From: Heterostelium album PN500
Lineage: Eukaryota; Evosea; Eumycetozoa; Acytosteliales; Acytosteliaceae
Reading direction: 5' to 3'
DNA: 64,000 bases
Assembly (NCBI RefSeq): GCF_000004825.1
Contig: NW_008805063.1
Coordinates: 1,364,857 to 1,428,856, forward strand
This document shows positions 12,454-27,889 of the stretch, in pieces; the first letter of the stretch is position 1, and every line of letters starts with the position of its first letter. The translations under genes were made by a program, and so were the position numbers. A model generated the notes under the pieces. It saw only the letters and a program-made list of their open reading frames with translations. It had not been told where the DNA came from and ran no database searches.

Positions 12454-12501
12454 AATTAAAAATTTATTCTATGTTAATTAATTAAAAATTTATTCTATGT
12501 T
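12454..12501. repeat. Tandem pair of a 22-bp direct repeat
   Basis: Two identical 22-bp copies lie at 12454-12475 and 12480-12501 (core TTTATTCTATGTT), separated by AATT. They sit in the 3' flank of the Fanzor-like gene, about 125 bp beyond its stop. A local replication slip is the simplest explanation. Confidence 0.8.
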
Positions 12502-12624
12502 ATTTTTGTTCTATGACAAAATATCTCTCTACAATTTCAAAAAAATAAATAATAAATAAATAAATTAGTAACTACGATTTTTTTTTGATTTTTCGTCACA
12601 CAAACTTACCTGATAAAATAATGA

Positions 12625-15600
12625 TTATTTATCAGCGAACAAATAATTATCGACGGATTCCTTACCCGTAGTTGATTCACTTTTTTTTTTCATCAGCAGT
12701 GTGAACCTTGATTCATTGTTTGAATCTTGAATTTGACGCATACCCACTAATAAGATATTACCAGCACCATTTACGTCACGATTGATATAGACTGCTTCAC
12801 CATCCTCCAAGATGTACATCAGTCGAGTGTATCTCAGCTTTGACTCTGTTTGTTGACTATTGGGTGACCAAGATGTATGTTTAATATAGTTTTGCACCTT
12901 TGACTTTTCATAGTGTGATTTGTTCATCAAATAGATCTGCTCATTTTCAATGAGCTTTGGAGCAAACATCTAAAATACAATTATAAAAAAAAAAAAAAAA
13001 AGTAATACATATTAGTTAAATTTAAAAAAAGGTAAATATATATTTTAATAAATAATTACAAACCTTGGATGTATTATATTCATCTACGATGAGTAGGTCA
13101 ACCTTAACACCAGCAACTGAGAAAATATACTTTTGAAGAGACTCTGTTTCCTTGGAAATGTATGGTGCACTGGTTACTCCTTTCATACCTTTGACATACC
13201 CAAGGTGTCCAGGACCATTACCATAGACTAAATAAAAAAAAAAGTATTAGTTTGTTAGTGAAATAAAAAACAATTTAAAATTGATATTTACTAAATATTT
13301 GTCTCAAAGCATATCGTTCAGCCACTTCTTTGTCGTAAAAGACAGACTTGATTTCATTACAATTGTTGCAATGTGCCAACCATACACGATCTCGATCTTG
13401 GAATGCCTCATCTACATAATAGTTGTTGTATATTCCACAGTTCTTGCATTTCCACTTACGTCCTATTAAAAATAAAAGAAAATAATTAGTTTTAATGTAT
13501 GATTAAATTATTTATCATTTTACTTACTTTTTCATTTTCCTCTTTTATCTTTATCTTTGTCTTTGTCTTTATCTTTGTCTTTATCTTTATCCTCTTTCTT
13601 CTTTCTTCTTCTTCTTTTCCTTCTTCTTTCATCCTCCACCTTCTTCTTTCCTCTACTTCTTTTTCTACCTTTTTTTCTATCTTTCTGTTTCTCTTCTTCC
13701 TCCTCCTCTTCCTCTTCATCTTCATCTATCTTTCTTCTCTCTTCCTCTTCTTCTTTCTTCTTCTTTTCTTTTCTTTCTTTATCTATGAAATCGAGGCATA
13801 GCTTGCATGTCTTGGTTACTTTACCACTTTTGAAAAATACAGGAACTGTTCCCAATGGTTGATCCTTATAAACTGAATCGTGTCTACGGTTTGCACATTT
13901 GGACTTATCTGTAGGAGTTGTTGGTGTAGTTGTTGAAGATGTTGTAGTTGGAGGTGTGATTGTAGTTGGTATAGTAGTTGCCGATGATGTTGTTGTCGTA
14001 GAAGTTGTTGTAGTTGATGGTGTGCTAAATAATTTAGATGATTTTGTTGTTAGGAATGGTCCTAATATCTTTTCCCAACCATTAGCTTTCTGAAACTTGT
14101 CTCGGAACCATTCCTCGATATCCACCAGGAGCTCATGAATATCTGTATTTCCACTGGACCTTCCGTACTCGACAATCGGAAACAGTTGCTTAATGAATTT
14201 CGTCATTCTTTTCAGCCAATATGGGATGTTGAATTCGATATTCTTTAGCATTTCTACATATATACTTATTATTATTATATGTACATCATTGATTTTGTTG
14301 GTATGAGTACGCTTTCTATTAGGAAGTGATTGTGGGGGTGGATATGGTAGAAATTCATTGGGATATAGTTTATATAATTTATAAAGTGCGAGTTGGAAGT
14401 TGTAGTAGTTGATTTCTTGTTGCTTATATTTATAATATGATTTTCCTCTTAATTTCATTTTCTTTTTATCATCGTTGTCATCGTCGTCATCATCATCATC
14501 ATTATTATTATTATCTTCATATTCTAATATACTGAATCTATTATTACTATTAATACTACTACTACCAATGCTACTACTACTACCTTTACTTGTACTAATG
14601 TTATTATTCTTGTTGTTGTTGATATTTATTATATCGTTGATATCTCCTGTCTTCTTTGCTTTTTCTTCTCCAATTTTTCTATCCACGGCCATGATTGCGT
14701 GATTAAAAATTCTTCTATTCCTCCAATTCATTGCTATTTTTCTCCTCTGTAGAGATCTTAGGTGTTGTTCTGTGAATTCTGGTCCACCTCTGACAAGTTT
14801 ATATTCTGCGAAAGTGCTATAGTTCTCGTGACTATATCTAAAGTCTATATATATCTCGTAGGTCTGAATTGAAAGAATATCGTTCTCTTTGGAAGCTATT
14901 GTTTGACAAATGTATAAGTAAAAGTTTTTTTATATTTTAAAAAAAAAATTTTTGAGTCAATACATACATTTCAGAGAAGGAACATTATTTTCAAACTCTA
15001 ATAGCTTTGGACCCAAGTTCCTTTTTCTTTTGTAATTGGTGAAGCTAGATCCGGTGTGATATCTGTGACTTTTACTTTTGAGAACCATTACAGAATCCTT
15101 GAGGTCTTTGCAATGTTTCTCACCATCAAAATTATACTCTAACTGCTTGTTTAGATATAGATTTTTGAATGGAGATGGATCTACTGCCACTGGACACTTT
15201 AATTTGACAGGACAATTTACAGTTAGCTTACTGCTGCTTTTGGTATTATCTGTTGACTCTGAAATATATATATTTAGATTTAAAAAAACAATTAGTAAAC
15301 CATTGAGTCATTGATTGAAAATATTGTATTATTAATTTGTGCTTACCGCTTTTAAAAGAATAATTGAATGTTACAGCATCGGTCATGTAGTGATTCACCT
15401 CTGATAGTTTCTTTCCACACAACTTATTCAACTTTTGGAGATTTAACCATTGATCCACATCCTTTGGTTTATACAATAATAACTTTAGTTCATATCTATA
15501 GTATTTTAAACAAAATAAATTAATATTAAAAAAAAAAAAAAAAAAAAAGAAATTAATTTGTATTCTTACCCTTTGAAAATTGGCAGCAAAGAATAGTGGT

Positions 15601-18600
15601 AGGAGGCGCTATAGTCTAGGAGTTTCTTTTCAAATGATTTCCAGTAATGCCTTGGTATCTTTGGTACATTAGGCGATCTCGGCTTCCTAGGAATCCAAGG
15701 CTTTTCTTTTTGAAGGAAAAGGTTTCGCTTTCTACCTAAAAACTCTTTCTCTGTCTCTGGTTTGTCTACAGTAGGCGCTTGATCGTTTGCTACTTGGTCA
15801 GGTACTCGTACTCGATACACCGGATACTCTCGGTATTGGACTGGTACAAGGTCGGAATCAGATGAATCATCGGACGATTCAAGATCTGAATAGCTTAATA
15901 AAGTATCGTCAGATTCATTATCAGAGACCACTGATAGTTGATCAGGGATTATCATACTATCAGAGACTGACAATTGATTGGATAATTCTGATAGTTGATT
16001 GGAGCCTGATATTTGGTCTGAGACTGAGGCTATCAATTGACCTGACACTGGCAATTGATCTGAGACTGCTACTATATCAGAGACTTTATCCGAGATTACT
16101 ACTTGATATGGCACTATCTCTAGATCCGAGTCTGATAAATACATAGAGTCAGGATAAAGACCGTCTACTGCCTCATGGAAGAACTTGGTCAAGGAAGGAC
16201 TTAGAGATGAGGCATGATTGGTAGCAAATATTCTCTTTACCTTTCCACCGATTGAAACCAAGAGTTTAAAATTCCAAAGTTGTTGCTCGACTACATGTAC
16301 CGGTAACTTGTGGTTTTTGATAAGATTTGACAAAATGATTAGGTCTCTTTTACCAGATAAAATAATGGTCGGTGGACTTTGATATTGCAGTAACCATAAT
16401 AAGTGTCTTTCCAACAGTGGGTCAAATACATAGCCAATATCATAAATGGACTTTACCATCATAGGCCAGAGCTCGGTCCATGAAAATGAACAATGACCAT
16501 TCATGTAGCGGGCAAGAGCTGACAAGTTCAAAGCAGTTTCAGATTTCAATCTCTCTTCAGCTGGACAGTTTGGTTCAATTAATGGTGATAACATTGGGAG
16601 AAGATTCACACAATACGCTTCACCACCATGACAAAGATAATCTTCTGACGGTTGAATTGGAGGGATAATGGAAGGACCTAATACTCCTCTAGCCAAAAGT
16701 TGATCGATATCAAGGTTTCCACGTTCTAGCTCTTCCTTTAAGAATGAAATGAAATCCTGTTTCATTAGCTGTTCTTTGGATAGGAACACAGTGGCAGAAC
16801 CTTTGCTGGCACGAGGTTTTGTGGTTTGCGGTTCATGGTCTACTTCGTAGGGAGAGAGTGTAACTATAAGTACATCTGGAGTTGTATTAGAATTGATTGG
16901 TTGTCCATCGATTGGGTTGATAAATAAATGTTTAAGGACCGGTAGATTGATTAATTGATTTAATTGTTGTATAAATAATTCTGTTCTTTCCATATATTGA
17001 TTCCTTGTAGTGGATCTATCATAAAAGTTGTCGAGATGTTTGATAAACTCTTCTATTGCTTCTTCAATGAATTGTGTCTTGTATTGATTTTCTGGCATAT
17101 CCAATTTTTCTAATTGTTGATAGAGTATACTAAAATCTGTTTCCGCTTTGCTTGACTTGAAAAATTGGTGTCTCTTTTCAAAACCTTGTTTCAATTGTGT
17201 GATCAATGGAGTATCTAAATGAAAAGTAAAAAAAAATTATTAGCAAAAATTAAATAAAAAAAGATGTGTGTGATTGATTTACCATTATCAAAGATAGACT
17301 GAGCTGGAGCATCAAGCATGATCTCATCGGTTGGTTGATGAGAATTGCAATTCTCGGAAGCACGAATATTCCAATAGGAATATTCCTCAAGCTGTGGATC
17401 CATAGCCAGAAAGTACCCGAATGGTCTATCTACTTCGTGTAGAAATTTACTGATCTTGGTAAAGTAGTCCGAACCATAGAACCCATGACTCGTAGTTGGG
17501 AAATCCTTGTAAATATCAAACCGTTGGAGTCGCTCTAAAATCCTAGAACAATCGTTTAAAATATCATTTGAAATATTTTTAAAATCTAAAAAAAAAAATT
17601 GTTAAAAACAATTAAAAAATTGGAATTTAATTTAAATATTTACCTTTATCTATCTCCAATAGAAATTTGTATAGATAAAAAGATTTGGTAAGATCACAAT
17701 CCAATATATCTTTATTCTTCATTACAACTTTTAAGCATCTGTTAAAAAGATGATCGAGTCCCAACTCTCTATGCTTTGATGTGGTTTGAAATTTAGATAC
17801 TTGTTGGAAATCGTATTCCCTAAAATACTGAATAGATTCTTTATGGTAATAAAAAATTAATAAATAAATAATTTAAATAAATATATCTATTTTTTCATAC
17901 CAAAAGTCCAATCAAGTTGATTGATTTTATGTTGAAAAGCTGGATCGGTTTCTAGATATAATATCATTCTCAAAATAGAATTGTGATCAATCCAGTGGTG
18001 AGCTTTTAGTTGATTCTCACTACATCTGTTGTAGGTTTTAACCAACTCTTCATATTGTTTCTTTGACAAAAATCCAATCTGAAATTAAAGAAAATGAATG
18101 TTAACCACTATCAAAGTTTGTTATTTTTAATTTTTTTTATATCTTACCAAATGATATTCAGAAAGAAATCTTAGAATATCTGAATTATTATGGTTGTTGT
18201 TTTTTATATTGAAGATTTCTTTTAGAAATATATTTAGTTGTTTCATGATATGATTCAACATTAACATAATATGAGAGTTGAAGTGATTCATTATTGCAGT
18301 GGTGAATTGACTTGTCATATGATCTGTTGTTGATTTGAATAGATTATTATTATTATTGAGTTCATTATTGATGTTGTTTCTTTTCATGAACTCTTCTATA
18401 TCTTTTTTAATAAGTTGTCTATAGGTAGTAAAAAAAAATAATTAAAATTAGGATGTGCAATTATATGTTTTAACTTTTAAACTTTAAAAAAAAGCATTGA
18501 ACATTGTTGTTAAATTTTTTTCAAAAAAGTTACATACTTTGATTTTTTTAAATTAAAATCCCTTTGAATATTGAAATAATCGGACCTGTTCTTTTCTCTG

Positions 18601-18953
18601 TATAATTTATCTTGAATTATTTTTTCTGTTACATATTCTTTTCTTTGCAATAATCTATATATACAATATACAACTATATTATGATTTAATACTAAAAATT
18701 TTGTTGGAGAATATTCATTAAAAATAACTTTTATATCTTTTCTATCTCGTAAGGAGCCATCTATAAATGATTTAAATTTATCTATTGGCTCCCTACCAAT
18801 CAAGTGATGATTTTTGAGTAAAAAGATATTTAAAAATAATGCAAATATTGATTCTACATCACGAATAAAAATACTATTTTCAAAAAATATACTTTTTAGA
18901 GTTGAATCTGAAATTATATTATTGAAATGAGTAAACTGTGTGGTAAATGACAT
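12625..18953 (-). CDS. Fanzor-like (TnpB/OrfB family) RuvC nuclease gene, 12 exons, with one in-frame TGA
   Basis: Twelve exons join with GT-AG sites in one consistent phase: 18953-18538, 18418-18148, 18078-17901, 17838-17644, 17585-17283, 17214-15570, 15495-15347, 15258-14968, 14895-13528, 13462-13292, 13227-13064 and 12969-12625, about 1831 codons. The C-terminal part shows the TnpB/Fanzor pattern: motif I VAVDPSPFKN (Asp about 1079), then SKSHRYHTGSSFTNYKRKRN; YGNGPGHLG..KGVTSAPY; motif II IVDEYNTSK (Glu about 1712); motif III INRDVNGAGNILL (Asp about 1782). Fanzors are eukaryotic RNA-guided nucleases related to IS605 TnpB. Oddities: a TGA at 13532-13534 just before a donor; no cysteines between motifs II and III, where a zinc ribbon is expected, although CKNC and CNNC pairs (about 1611-1640) precede motif II; low-complexity K/E/D tracts; and about 1050 residues before motif I with no recognised domain. 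The 5' exons could belong to another gene, but phase and spacing favour one. Confidence 0.72.
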
Positions 18954-23730: not shown

Positions 23731-24007
23731 TGATGAAAACTTTTTTATCTAAAAAAGGTTAATTATATTTTTTTAAAATCATTTTATTCTTGATTATTTG
23801 TGGTATCAATTTAAAATTGTTTTATCGTTGGTAATGATGTTTGTTTCAATGAATTGTTTTGGATTTTGCAAATACTTTGTTTTGAAACTGTATATCATGT
23901 TGGTTTAGTTTTAATTATTAAGATCCAAAATTCTTTTTTTAAACTATATTAATATCTTTTGTTTTGTTGATCTAGATTCTTCAAAAAATTAAAGTTTGAA
24001 TAACAGA

Positions 24008-25826
24008 ATGAATAATAATAAAATATCTAGATATCATCAATCAAGGAATCCTATATACTCCTCTTTAAGTAGTTTAACAAAGACAATTAGTACAAATTAT
24101 AATATTAATCAATTCCAACAAGACAATCAGACAATAGATAGAAATAATAATCATGTTTCAAAAATAAAAGAAAAATATAGTAGTACAATACAACACTACA
24201 ATGTTGGATCAATACAAACTAATTTTACTAAATCCATTCCCCGACCTATTGAAAAGACTTGTGTAAATACATTGGACAATTTAATACTTGTAGAAAGAGG
24301 GTGACTTTGAATATTATTAATATAACAATTCTTTATTTTTAAACTAATATTTTTTTGTTTTTATTTAAAAAAACTAGTTTTAAAAATATAGGAAATACTT
24401 GTTACATGAATGCAGCTTTACAATCTCTATTTGGAGTTCCACATTTTGTAAAAGATTTAAAAGGAAATTCGTAAATATAAAGCTTTTTTTTTTTTTTTTT
24501 TAAATTTTAAAGTATTTTTTTTATTTACTTTTACTTCAATCTATAGAAATAATGAATACCTTAAAAAGACAATAGAGAAAAAAGTATTTATTCCAAACTT
24601 TTAAATTTAATAGAGATGAAAGAAATCTATTTGGTAAGAGGTTCAACTGGAATTGATACCAAACCTTTCAAATATCTTTTGGATCAAAAAACTAGAGCTT
24701 TTAAAGGTAGTGAGCAACAAGATTCTCATGAATTCTTATTAATATTGACGGATATCCTGGAAGAGGAGTTAAAGGAGACTCTGAAGAAAGAGAATGAAAT
24801 TTTGGAAGCAAAGCGAAAAGAAAAACAGTTAGAGAATAAGATACCCGTGAACATTAAAGACAACAACAATGACAAAAACAATGACAACAACAATGACAAC
24901 AACAATGACAACAACAATGACAACAACAACAACAATAACGATGAAACAATTAATAACCAACTTATTAAATCACCACAACCTTTGGACATTCCAAAGTTAC
25001 TCTTATCAATCTGTCCAATCACAAAGAATTTCAGATCGACAATTCACAACATTTTCACTTGTATAAATTGTAAAGTTATATCAGAAAACAATGAAATGTT
25101 GACAATTATTTCATTGGAAATTCCTACACATTCACCGTATGTTTATATTTTTCTAAATATATATTTTAAAATATTTATAAAATTTTGTTATTTCTTATTT
25201 AATATCTTACTTTTTTTTTGAATGTTAGATCGGAAACCTATAATATAGAGAAACTTTTGGAAAATTATTTAAAGGAGGAAACCATTTATAGAAATTGTAA
25301 TAAGTGTTCTCACGATAAATCATCAGTTACCAAATACTTTTCAGAGACACCGAATGTCTTGGTTTTGCATTTGAAACGATTCAAACAAAACGATGACCAG
25401 ACATTTAGAAAAGACTCTTTGTCTATTCCTCCAATGGAAACTATCAAAGTTACCACGATTTTACAAATTGATGATAATTTTCAACAACCAAAGGTTAATG
25501 TTACAACAACAACAACTACTACTACTACAACAACAACAAATATTACTACCAAAATCAACAATATCAGCTCAACTAAATCGAAAGAATTACCAAACAACAC
25601 TATTAAAAAGAAAACTACCGAACAGAAATTCAATTTACAGAGTGCAATTCAACATATAGGTAGTATGGATTTTGGACATTATGTTTCATTCGTTAAAGGA
25701 AATAATGAGTATTGGAAACTCTATGACGATGAAAAAGTTGTTACTGATATTCGATTCATTGATGTATATGATAGATTATTAAAAGATGGATATGTATATT
25801 TCTATACAAAAGAACAGCAACAATGA
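24008..25826 (+). CDS. Ubiquitin carboxyl-terminal hydrolase (USP family), four exons, with one apparent frameshift
   Basis: The product removes ubiquitin from proteins. Exon 1 (24008-24300) is an Asn-rich leader. Exon 2 (24378-24470) carries the cysteine box GNTCYMNAALQSLFG. After an intron, the sequence reads NNEYLKK and then continues in a different frame as DNREKSIYSKLLNLIEMKEIYLV, a typical USP segment. The break lies at the A-run 24563-24567 and no intron fits. The frame then runs through QQDSHEFLLILTDIL, an Asn/Asp-rich insert, CINCK and CNKCSH zinc-knuckle pairs, and the His box HIGSMDFGHYVSFVK, ending at TAA 25824-25826. All catalytic elements are present. Either the A-run is miscounted or the gene is newly broken. 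Confidence 0.85.
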
Positions 25827-26329
25827 TTTGAATATAGCCATTTAATTTGATTTTAAATAAACTAAAAAAGTTGTAGTAATAATATTATCATTAATTTTAT
25901 TTTTGTTTGACTAGAATACATCTCAATAGAAATTCTAAAATCCTTCTCCTCAAGTTCTTCATATTCTAGTGGATATGAGTATTAGAAATGTTATTTATTA
26001 TTTGAACTTTTTTTTGGGTTGAAACTTATGAAGACTAATTAATACCAACTGAGCTGTTCAGCCAAACATCTTATTTTTTTAAAGGTTAAATAAAAATAAG
26101 TTGTTTTGTATTCAAATAACTATCAATTTATATCTTAATATATCTCAGTAGTAACTACTTTCTATTCTAAATTTAACAAGTTTCAGAAATTAAATGGATT
26201 TTCTGACTTGCAAAAAACAATTCAAATTTAATTCAAAAAAAAAAATAAATCTTTAATCATTGTTAATCAATTAATTTAAATAATATTTGTGAATTTTAAA
26301 TGATTATTAGTAATTATAGATATAAAAGT
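25827..26329. other. AT-rich intergenic stretch
   Basis: I see no frame or structure here beyond A/T runs. It follows the ubiquitin protease stop and leads into the relic region. Confidence 0.5.
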
Positions 26330-26986
26330 ATAATATTTATATCAACATTGTTGTTGTCGATGCTGCCTCCTCATCGATTCCTCGATGTATTCTAGATCAA
26401 AGAATCACCAATGATAAATACTCGATGGATTGTACAACACACAACCAATACAATGTTATGATATGTCCATCGATCACAGCATGTTTATCAGGTCAAGCTC
26501 AACAATTCGGAACTTACAATATCTTGGTTAAAGATGGTGTCTATGATTGGGTTCAACCCACCTCAATCTCTTTGAGTAACGATCTATTCATCAACATCAA
26601 ACCATTCAATGTATCTTCAGGTGTTTCATTCAAATGTTATGTAAGTAAAGAAGATTCTGTTCAAAATTAAAATAATTTAATTAAAATGATTATTTTTAAA
26701 ATAACTACCAACTAATAACTATTTATATTGTTAATAGGATAATTATTTCTTAAATATAGTAACAGATTCCCAAATTAGAGTCAATATTTCAAGTATTGAA
26801 CTTGATTGTGCAAGATATGAAGAGTACATTCTTAGAAGAAGTTCTATCTATATGAATGGTGATATTAACAGAATTTCCCAACTCAATCTCCGGTTGCAAA
26901 TTGAGTTTGGAAATTCTGTTATTCTCTCAAATAAAATAAAATGGTTTATTCACTTTAAAAACAGAAAAATATTAGATAAAAATTAA
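26330..26986 (+). pseudogene. Fragment of a secreted or cell-surface protein gene, no start codon visible
   Basis: A plus frame opens at about 26330 without ATG and reads INIVVVDAASSSIPRCILD, then YNVMICPSITACLSGQAQ and LSNDLFINIKPFNVSSGVSF. It splices at GTAAGT (26642) to an exon at 26739 reading NYFLNIVTDSQIRVNISS, and ends at TAA 26984-26986. The Cys and beta-rich pattern resembles dictyostelid extracellular-matrix or adhesion repeats. The first half of the gene is absent. The last exon contains the near-perfect hairpin at 26866-26921. It may be a truncated gene or one whose 5' end was replaced. Confidence 0.45.
26866..26921 (+). ncRNA. Candidate hairpin RNA, 22-nt arms with one mismatch
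   Basis: Arms at 26866-26887 (starting TAACAGAATTTCCC) and 26900-26921 pair at 21 of 22 positions, with a C/T mismatch. The loop is 12 nt (CTCCGGTTGCAA). Arm and loop sizes resemble a small-RNA precursor. It lies inside the last exon of a decayed gene, so it could also be a chance local inverted duplication. Confidence 0.4.
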
Positions 26987-27889
26987 GCACATCAATAATA
27001 ATAAATAGTATTTTGGTATTACTTACAATGATACTTTGATCCATATCTATCACCTCGAAACTGATTAAAGGGAATGAATAGATGACACTTTTATAATTTT
27101 TTTTTATTTTACTCACTATCAGAATAGATGTTTATCAAATTAATACTATTTTTATCACATTTTACTACTTTTAGTATTGGGTGAGGGTTGTAGAGTATTT
27201 ATTTGAATAAAAATTTTGTATTGTAATAATTTTTTTTATTTATATACTTTTTTTATTTAGCTACCAGAAAGAAATGGTAATGAAAGAGGCCTTGAAGTCT
27301 AAAGGAGGAGATAAGAACACAGTCAGTGAGATCAATGTCAAGTTTGTTTAAATAGTCCTCAATTTTGAATAGAGCCAATCAAAGTTGCTTCAACAGATTT
27401 CAATTGTAAATCAAAGAGTATCTTTGATATTGGTAGTACATATTATTGTTAATAAGTTCAAATTCTAGAATTCTTGCATTCAATTGCTAGCAGCCTACCT
27501 CTGTGGAAAGCAACCTCCCACAACTTTTAGCTCCATTCACCAGTCAACCTATTATTAATACCACAGGCAAGGAATGTCTTCGACAGAATTTGGTTTATGC
27601 GTTCACGCAGTAAGTATTAAATTGTTTTTTTTTTTTTTGAAACAAAGCATGGTTTATTAATTTTCTGTTTTCAAGAGAATAAATCATTAGTATTGACTTT
27701 AATATATCTAGAATTTGAACTTATAAATAATAATATGTAAATAATTAATCAAATAGAGTTGTATTCAAAAAAGTATTTAAATATATACAAACAAATAATA
27801 AACGTTCTCTTTATTCAAATAAACAAATTTAACTTTTAATATATAACTTGTTATACATAATGATGTTTTCGTATAGAAAACAATTAGTG
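26987..27889. other. Intergenic region with further coding relics
   Basis: Short coding-like pieces occur on the plus strand: FGITYNDTLIHIYHLETD near 27010, an exon-like piece after a TTTAG at about 27260 (EMVMKEALKSKGGDKNTV, then a stop), and one at about 27485-27610 (PQLLAPFTSQPIINTTGKE). None connects to a start codon. I cannot tell whether they come from one former gene. Confidence 0.4.

Follow-up and report, generated by a model that had tools for sequence, protein, structure and literature searches.

The window analysed here is a 64,000-nucleotide stretch of the Heterostelium album PN500 genome (contig NW_008805063.1, positions 1,364,857 to 1,428,856), and it contains a gene of 12 exons on the minus strand (18953-12625) whose predicted product resembles the RNA-guided nuclease Fanzor1. 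Our reading, which we regard as fairly likely, is that this gene is an old copy from a multi-copy, transposon-borne family of Fanzor1-like genes; that subfamilies A-D of the family, to the first of which the window gene belongs, lack the usual zinc finger and carry a zinc-ribbon-like module; and that this particular copy is probably non-functional.

To delimit the family, the last 226 residues of the window protein were searched against the genome, which comprises 32.9 Mb in 39 contigs. The search gave 38 matches at E ≤ 10, of which 30 reached E ≤ 1e-3. With the window counted, these fall in about 21 loci, a pair of C16 sites separated by 3 kb counting as two; for large families such counts are lower bounds. 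Among the sequences compared, subfamily A consists of the window gene, L009, L010 and fragments; B of L011 and L012; C of L019, L020 and L021; and D of L022, L023, L024, L034 and fragments. Two bridge subfamilies, E (L085) and F (L086), were found through weak matches to the profile PF07282.

The RuvC motifs and the putative zinc modules

Six-frame reading and exon joining reproduced the 12-exon structure proposed in the initial annotation, with introns of 58-119 nt, GT..AG ends and exons that join in phase. The start codon lies at 18953 in exon 1 (18538-18953). Exon 6 (15570-17214) encodes a large N-terminal part in which no Pfam family scored above its cut-off, and exon 8 (14968-15258) encodes the RuvC-I motif VAVDPSPFKN, with the first catalytic Asp (D1) at residue 1079 (base 15181). 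Most of the RuvC insertion, with low-complexity and Lys-rich stretches, comes from exon 9 (13528-14895). Downstream, exon 10 (13292-13462) encodes a zinc-ribbon-like CxxC...CxxC motif, whose first Cys is encoded at 13448 and which precedes the catalytic Glu, and exon 11 (13064-13227) encodes the G motif (GNGPGHLG..KG..P) and the RuvC-II Glu, in DEYNTSK (residue 1712, base 13081). Finally, exon 12 (12625-12969) spans the usual Fanzor finger region, here without Cys before the Asp, followed by the RuvC-III motif NRDVNGAGNI, with the last Asp (D3) at residue 1782 (base 12777), and the stop codon. The motifs VAVDPSPFKN, GNGPGHLG...SAPY, IVDEYNTSK and NRDVNGAGNI are therefore encoded where and in the order first described, and the Asp, Glu and Asp of the catalytic triad stand within these ordered RuvC motifs.

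We aligned five sequences covering subfamilies A-D (the window protein, L009, and one each from B, C and D). None of the five has the C4 zinc finger that would lie between RuvC-II and RuvC-III; the interval from the Glu to D3 contains no Cys in the window protein, L009, C and D, and one in B. Each of the five has a [KR]W[KE]CxxC...CxxC module before the G motif, in the long insertion between RuvC-I and RuvC-II, and in each the last Cys of the module precedes the Glu by exactly 72 residues. The Glu itself occupies the alternative position described in PMC10711439, immediately ahead of [TS][TS], and stands within [DN]E[YF]NTS[QK] in all five, C having N-E where the others have D-E. The D, E, D triad is found in each of subfamilies A-D, whose mutual identity from the ribbon to the end of the protein is 24-45%. 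The RuvC-I triplet is DPS in the window protein, L009 and B, DPA in C, DPG in D and F, and DCG in E. An RD.N match further upstream in subfamily C was considered as RuvC-III and rejected, as it sits in another exon.

In these five sequences RuvC-I and RuvC-II are several hundred residues apart, with low-complexity stretches between them. The distance from D1 to the Glu is 633 residues in the window protein, outside the Fanzor1 spacing D-X(125,275)-[TS][TS], and 162 residues in E and 150 in F. The X(5,50) interval that the Fanzor1 pattern sets between finger and RD has no starting point in the window protein, where the finger is missing. In E, ECYTSK is followed by HxxC and, 121 residues later, by CxxC beside RuvC-III, in ...CRCCGHFYHRDKNAARNIL, whereas F has no CxxC beside RuvC-III. 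Only the RuvC-III half of the finger in E is clear, because the two pairs are 121 residues apart and the published search pattern allows 12-18 (PMC10711439). According to that paper, the finger occurs in 'many' TnpBs and Fanzors, and RuvC-I is 'near exclusively' DPG in Fanzor1.

Within a single genome, then, the sequences appear to form a series: half or whole of a finger in E, none in F, and none plus a new ribbon in A-D. We classify the family as Fanzor1-like and, judging from its sequences, as a new architectural variant. The ribbon-like module is predicted to bind zinc and may take over functions of the finger in A-D. The fuller proposal is that the finger after RuvC-II was replaced by a ribbon within the RuvC insertion, 72 residues before the Glu (E keeping half of the finger, F and A-D none), to give an active RNA-guided nuclease of about 1800 residues; this we offer tentatively, as it is rather doubtful in its entirety. 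If the A-D proteins are active, they show that the nuclease triad can be kept after loss or relocation of the zinc finger that TnpB, Cas12f and Fanzor have in common.

Probable relationship to Fanzor1 and comparison with TnpB

The kinship of the window protein with Fanzor is supported indirectly, by a bridge to E and F that rests on common introns and profile-profile alignment. All of A-F have a phase-0 intron immediately behind TS[KQR], and a phase-1 intron before the G motif is found in A-D and F, though not in E. Core profiles of A-D, with the RuvC insertion left out and C represented by L019, aligned to E+F in hhalign with a probability of 93.2 (E = 2.9e-7, 152 columns); the score was 56.3, and the highest among 100 column-shuffled controls was 22.3. 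When C was omitted the probability was 63.7 and the score 40.5, compared with 20.1 for the best shuffled profile. E and F themselves match PF07282 (E = 2.2e-5 and E = 0.0011, respectively). We therefore consider homology of A-D to Fanzor likely, though not proven.

Several results weigh against this kinship. The profile search against TnpB and Fanzor that the initial annotation had proposed gave no significant match: the window protein matched PF07282 at E = 0.0048 over 12 residues (17.5 bits against a cut-off of 26.3), and the profile matches three of the five aligned family members at E ≤ 1. In a PDB profile search the best hit was an unrelated G protein (E = 0.054), followed by TranC (E = 0.18), and an hhalign comparison with four TnpBs encoded on viral contigs aligned only 15-16 columns; neither was significant. 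Even the match of E, at 25.0 bits, lies below the cut-off of 26.3 and covers the last 18 of 60 profile positions. Single-profile ranks were marginal: among 10003 targets E came first and F third, the two exchanging places when C was left out, and in another run, with L021 as C, the second real match stood 0.3 bit above the best shuffle. In the reverse search with an E+F profile against 12506 targets, only the window protein and C, ranked first and second, scored above all shuffles, the C sequence there coming from L021 and crossing a broken frame; B ranked 74th, L009 86th, a TnpB 128th and D 1091st. Of five element 3' ends folded, none gave a stable guide-RNA-like structure or folded better than expected (z from -1.14 to 0.90). 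Finally, A-D do not obey the C4 finger that Bao and Jurka call strictly conserved in Fanzor (Bao & Jurka, 2013; PMC3627910). Thus the Fanzor relationship proposed in the initial annotation is supported indirectly, through E, F and the published Sola2-Fanzor1 elements described below, while direct profile matches do not establish it.

Three known systems can be compared with the window protein. SpuFz1 has the triad D383, E541 and D606 and a CCCC zinc finger (PMC10432273; PMC11423790). Its spacing from E to the last D (65 residues, against 70 in the window protein) and the position of its Glu just before the finger region resemble the window protein, which differs in having no finger. PpFz1 of Parasitella parasitica is a Fanzor1 with an insertion in RuvC, as the Fanzor1-like window protein also has; this FRI domain is about 100 residues long and is reported only in Parasitella and Rhizopus (PMC11423790), whereas the window protein has 633 residues between D1 and E, with a zinc-ribbon-like motif. 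Most Fz1 proteins have 600-700 residues according to the same source. TnpB shares with the window protein an RD.N...NI-like RuvC-III motif, but its Glu is followed by the finger some 50 residues later (PMC10711439), and that of the window protein is in the alternative place.

Relatives were also looked for outside this genome. Pattern scans gave 135 stretches in viral contigs and 123 in bacterial and archaeal genomes, none of them confirmed, and there was no match in phages. The frames read from scans of viral contigs for a canonical motif encoded TnpBs or unrelated proteins, none callable as Fanzor1. We know of no paper on fingerless dictyostelid Fanzors, from a literature search of which only a part was aimed at Fanzor with Dictyostelium.

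Copies, element ends and transposase partners

Several relatives of the window gene occur as near-identical copies. L009 and L010 are 98% identical over an alignment of 7489 bases, with a further piece of 410 bases at 95% that derives from another coding sequence, and share the same 3' end point. The subfamily C copies on contigs C14 and C25 are about 14.5 kb long and 98-99% identical in five large aligned pieces. AAAT adjoins both ends of both of these copies, the two examined at both ends; it is identical in the two, and so could be element sequence instead of a target duplication. In the D copies, the four letters past the common 3' terminus are AAAT (L022 and L024), ATTT (L023) and AATT (L034). 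The element terminus TCAAGAGAATAAATC has 44 exact occurrences in the genome, compared with none for the reversed control. The apparent span of the subfamily C gene is about 6.7 kb, and since subfamily C is mobile, the large size of the window gene looks like a trait of the family.

One of the 44 occurrences is at position 27671 of the window. It belongs to a degraded subfamily C element end at 27481-27685 (+), which is 87% identical to the contig C14 copy over 123 bases and bears the shared terminus (27667-27685, +, one mismatch to TTTTTCAAGAGAATAAATC); this remnant is separate from the window gene and lies outside it.

At the 3' ends of L009, L012, L020 and L022, a GTAAGT-like donor adjoins the stop codon, and just inside the element end there are a branch-point motif, a T-rich tract and an AG. 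Read by eye, this conserved 3' block looks like an intron in the 3' untranslated region (GTAAGT ... ACTAAT, T-rich, AG), behind which come AATAAA and the element end. L009 and L010 have in addition a 54-nt inverted repeat (8060-8213 in L009, 804-903 in L010), the region between its arms being opposite in orientation in the two, as if flipped. Opposite the Fanzor 3' end, they share a truncated piece of another coding sequence (L009 8225-8609, L010 384-791) that has no Pfam match and may reflect either capture or segmental duplication.

The subfamily C elements contain an open reading frame on the opposite strand that we read by eye as a DDE transposase; a Pfam search with it gave no match. It has 15 matches in the genome. 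Eight are 97-100% identical over at least 224 of 244 residues (C2:94056, C4:1305449, C8:191460, C12:6975, C14:1788, C14:390100, C17:524885 and C25:975243), and the rest are fragments or distant. All eight near-intact copies have a Fanzor-like match 8-17 kb away on the opposite strand. Five of these are protein matches, the partner belonging to subfamily C on contigs C14 and C25, to D on C17 and C8, and to B on C12. The other three, on C4, C14 and C2, are weak PF07282 matches (E from 0.0018 to 0.0072) attributed to E; of these the C4 partner (L085) was read, and its 168-codon frame and its distance recur in the other two, which are assigned to E on that basis. The pairs traced from end to end as a single element are those of subfamily C. 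Where the 5' halves were compared, the C14 and C17 copies are 96% identical over 1989 columns, and the C14 and C12 copies 99% over 1304 bases. Apparently, then, one transposase half has exchanged Fanzor partners across four subfamilies (B, C, D and E). With eight transposase copies near four Fanzor-like subfamilies, partner exchange in chimeric transposons is directly testable. Following PMC3627910, we take the transposase-bearing elements to be probably of the Sola2 type.

This arrangement resembles a published one. Bao and Jurka describe three Sola2-Fanzor1 chimeras of Polysphondylium pallidum (PPa-1, 4 and 5) with a common 5' half and AT-rich 4-bp target duplications (Bao & Jurka, 2013; PMC3627910). 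B, C, D and E likewise combine a near-identical transposase half with differing Fanzor halves, apparent AT-rich 4-bp targets and imperfect inverted ends. They match the published description, although identity with PPa-1, 4 and 5 is not proven; a C4 finger is stated there and is missing in A-D, and subfamily A is without transposase in the regions examined.

For subfamily A, two results count against a transposon-borne origin. No matching target duplication was found for L009 and L010. The shared element 3' terminus was not found in the flank of the window gene: at 12500-12624 there is a GTAAGT just past the stop codon, as in the relatives, and their terminus is not recognisable. The 64 kb window also contains no transposase match.

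Condition of the window copy and alternative readings

The joined reading frame of the window gene is interrupted at codon 1604 of 1832, the final stop counted, by a TGA (13534-13532) that lies four bases short of the exon 9 end. With this exon 9 join, the frame of about 1831 open codons in the initial annotation does not hold. The TGA lies upstream of the ribbon motif, the Glu and the last Asp, so that unless the transcript is spliced otherwise, the protein ends before all three. The exon 9 donor is GTAAGTAA; in L009 the corresponding donor, GTAAGT, agrees in place and phase, and there is no stop. When changes were polarized with B as outgroup, 23 could be placed on the window branch and 8 on the L009 branch, and 51 were unresolved. 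Taken together, the branch changes, the TGA and the missing terminus suggest an old copy under relaxed constraint, and owing to the in-frame TGA the copy is probably no longer functional.

Decay is not confined to the window copy. Recent copy pairs elsewhere in the genome differ at 10-20 of 780-1483 codons and have no stops in aligned codons, yet their exons contain insertions or deletions, of 1-24 bases apart from one of 123, and some of these have lengths not divisible by three. The RuvC-I region of L021 (subfamily C, on contig C14) is out of frame, whereas it is open in L019 and L020 (on C21 and C25), which are 98% identical to it. The mobile families are therefore partly decayed too, which counts against our main reading.

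We considered whether the window copy might nevertheless be functional, another splice removing the TGA and the protein serving the element or the host. This is possible, though we think it doubtful. GT donors upstream, at 13668 and 13656, would skip the TGA in phase and leave one open frame of 1784 or 1788 residues; they fit the donor consensus less well (GTAGAA and GTAGAG), and GTAAGTAA, beside the TGA, is the donor common with L009. The ratio of nonsynonymous to synonymous substitution rates (dN/dS) between the window gene and L009 is 0.225 (NG86) or 0.147 (YN00) over 224 codons from the ribbon to the end and 0.197 (NG86) or 0.287 (YN00) over 154 codons around RuvC-I. However, dS is high; of three further segments one gave an NG86 value (0.304) and two gave no valid dS, and dN/dS between families also reflects selection before insertion. 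The window protein differs at one of the 31 columns that are invariant in the other four sequences, and so keeps 30 of them, but the excess of changes on its branch speaks for the probably non-functional copy that we prefer.

A separate matter is what the intact protein did. On our reading, the ancestor would have been a RuvC-type nuclease with a triad of D, alternative E and D, and by analogy with studied Fanzors it would have carried an RNA from the element end. RNA-guided cutting by RuvC at a matching site would then help the element persist, and in A-D the zinc-ribbon-like module, at its fixed distance from the Glu, may do the work of the finger. Nuclease activity, RNA guidance and a role in transposition are thus inferred for the family from characterized Fanzors. 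Alternatively, the family may descend from Fanzor and no longer be an RNA-guided nuclease, acting for example as a DNA-binding helper of the transposase, with a triad that is structural only. The missing finger, the DPA and N-E of subfamily C, the large insertions and the failure to find a guide-RNA-like structure would all fit such a protein, which we nonetheless consider unlikely, given that D, E and D are kept throughout A-D at such low mutual identity.

The initial annotation had favoured a host-resident, possibly domesticated gene. The lack of a recognisable terminus and of a transposase near the window copy, and its long, open exons, could be read as signs of a host gene kept for a cellular task. 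From the data of this one genome, we reject domestication as very improbable on account of the in-frame stop, the match to about 21 loci, the faster change on the window branch (23 against 8) and the mobile relatives with like gene structure. A chance occurrence of the motifs in an unrelated protein is scarcely credible, since despite weak direct profile scores the ordered motif DP[GSA]..E[YF].TS..RD.N appeared in just 6 of 20000 shuffled versions of the window protein (unusual, yet on motif order alone insufficient to decide), is conserved across subfamilies, and comes with shared introns and a profile match with E and F.

Two further features concern the surroundings of the window gene. At L030 (C39:104000-112500), pieces corresponding to window positions 13993-15153, 23970-24791 and 26255-26887 recur in rearranged order at 84-94% identity, and include parts of the gene and of its flank. 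A ubiquitin-specific protease gene lies at 24565-25826 (+), where PF00443 matches in two pieces (E = 8.6e-7 and 4.6e-18).

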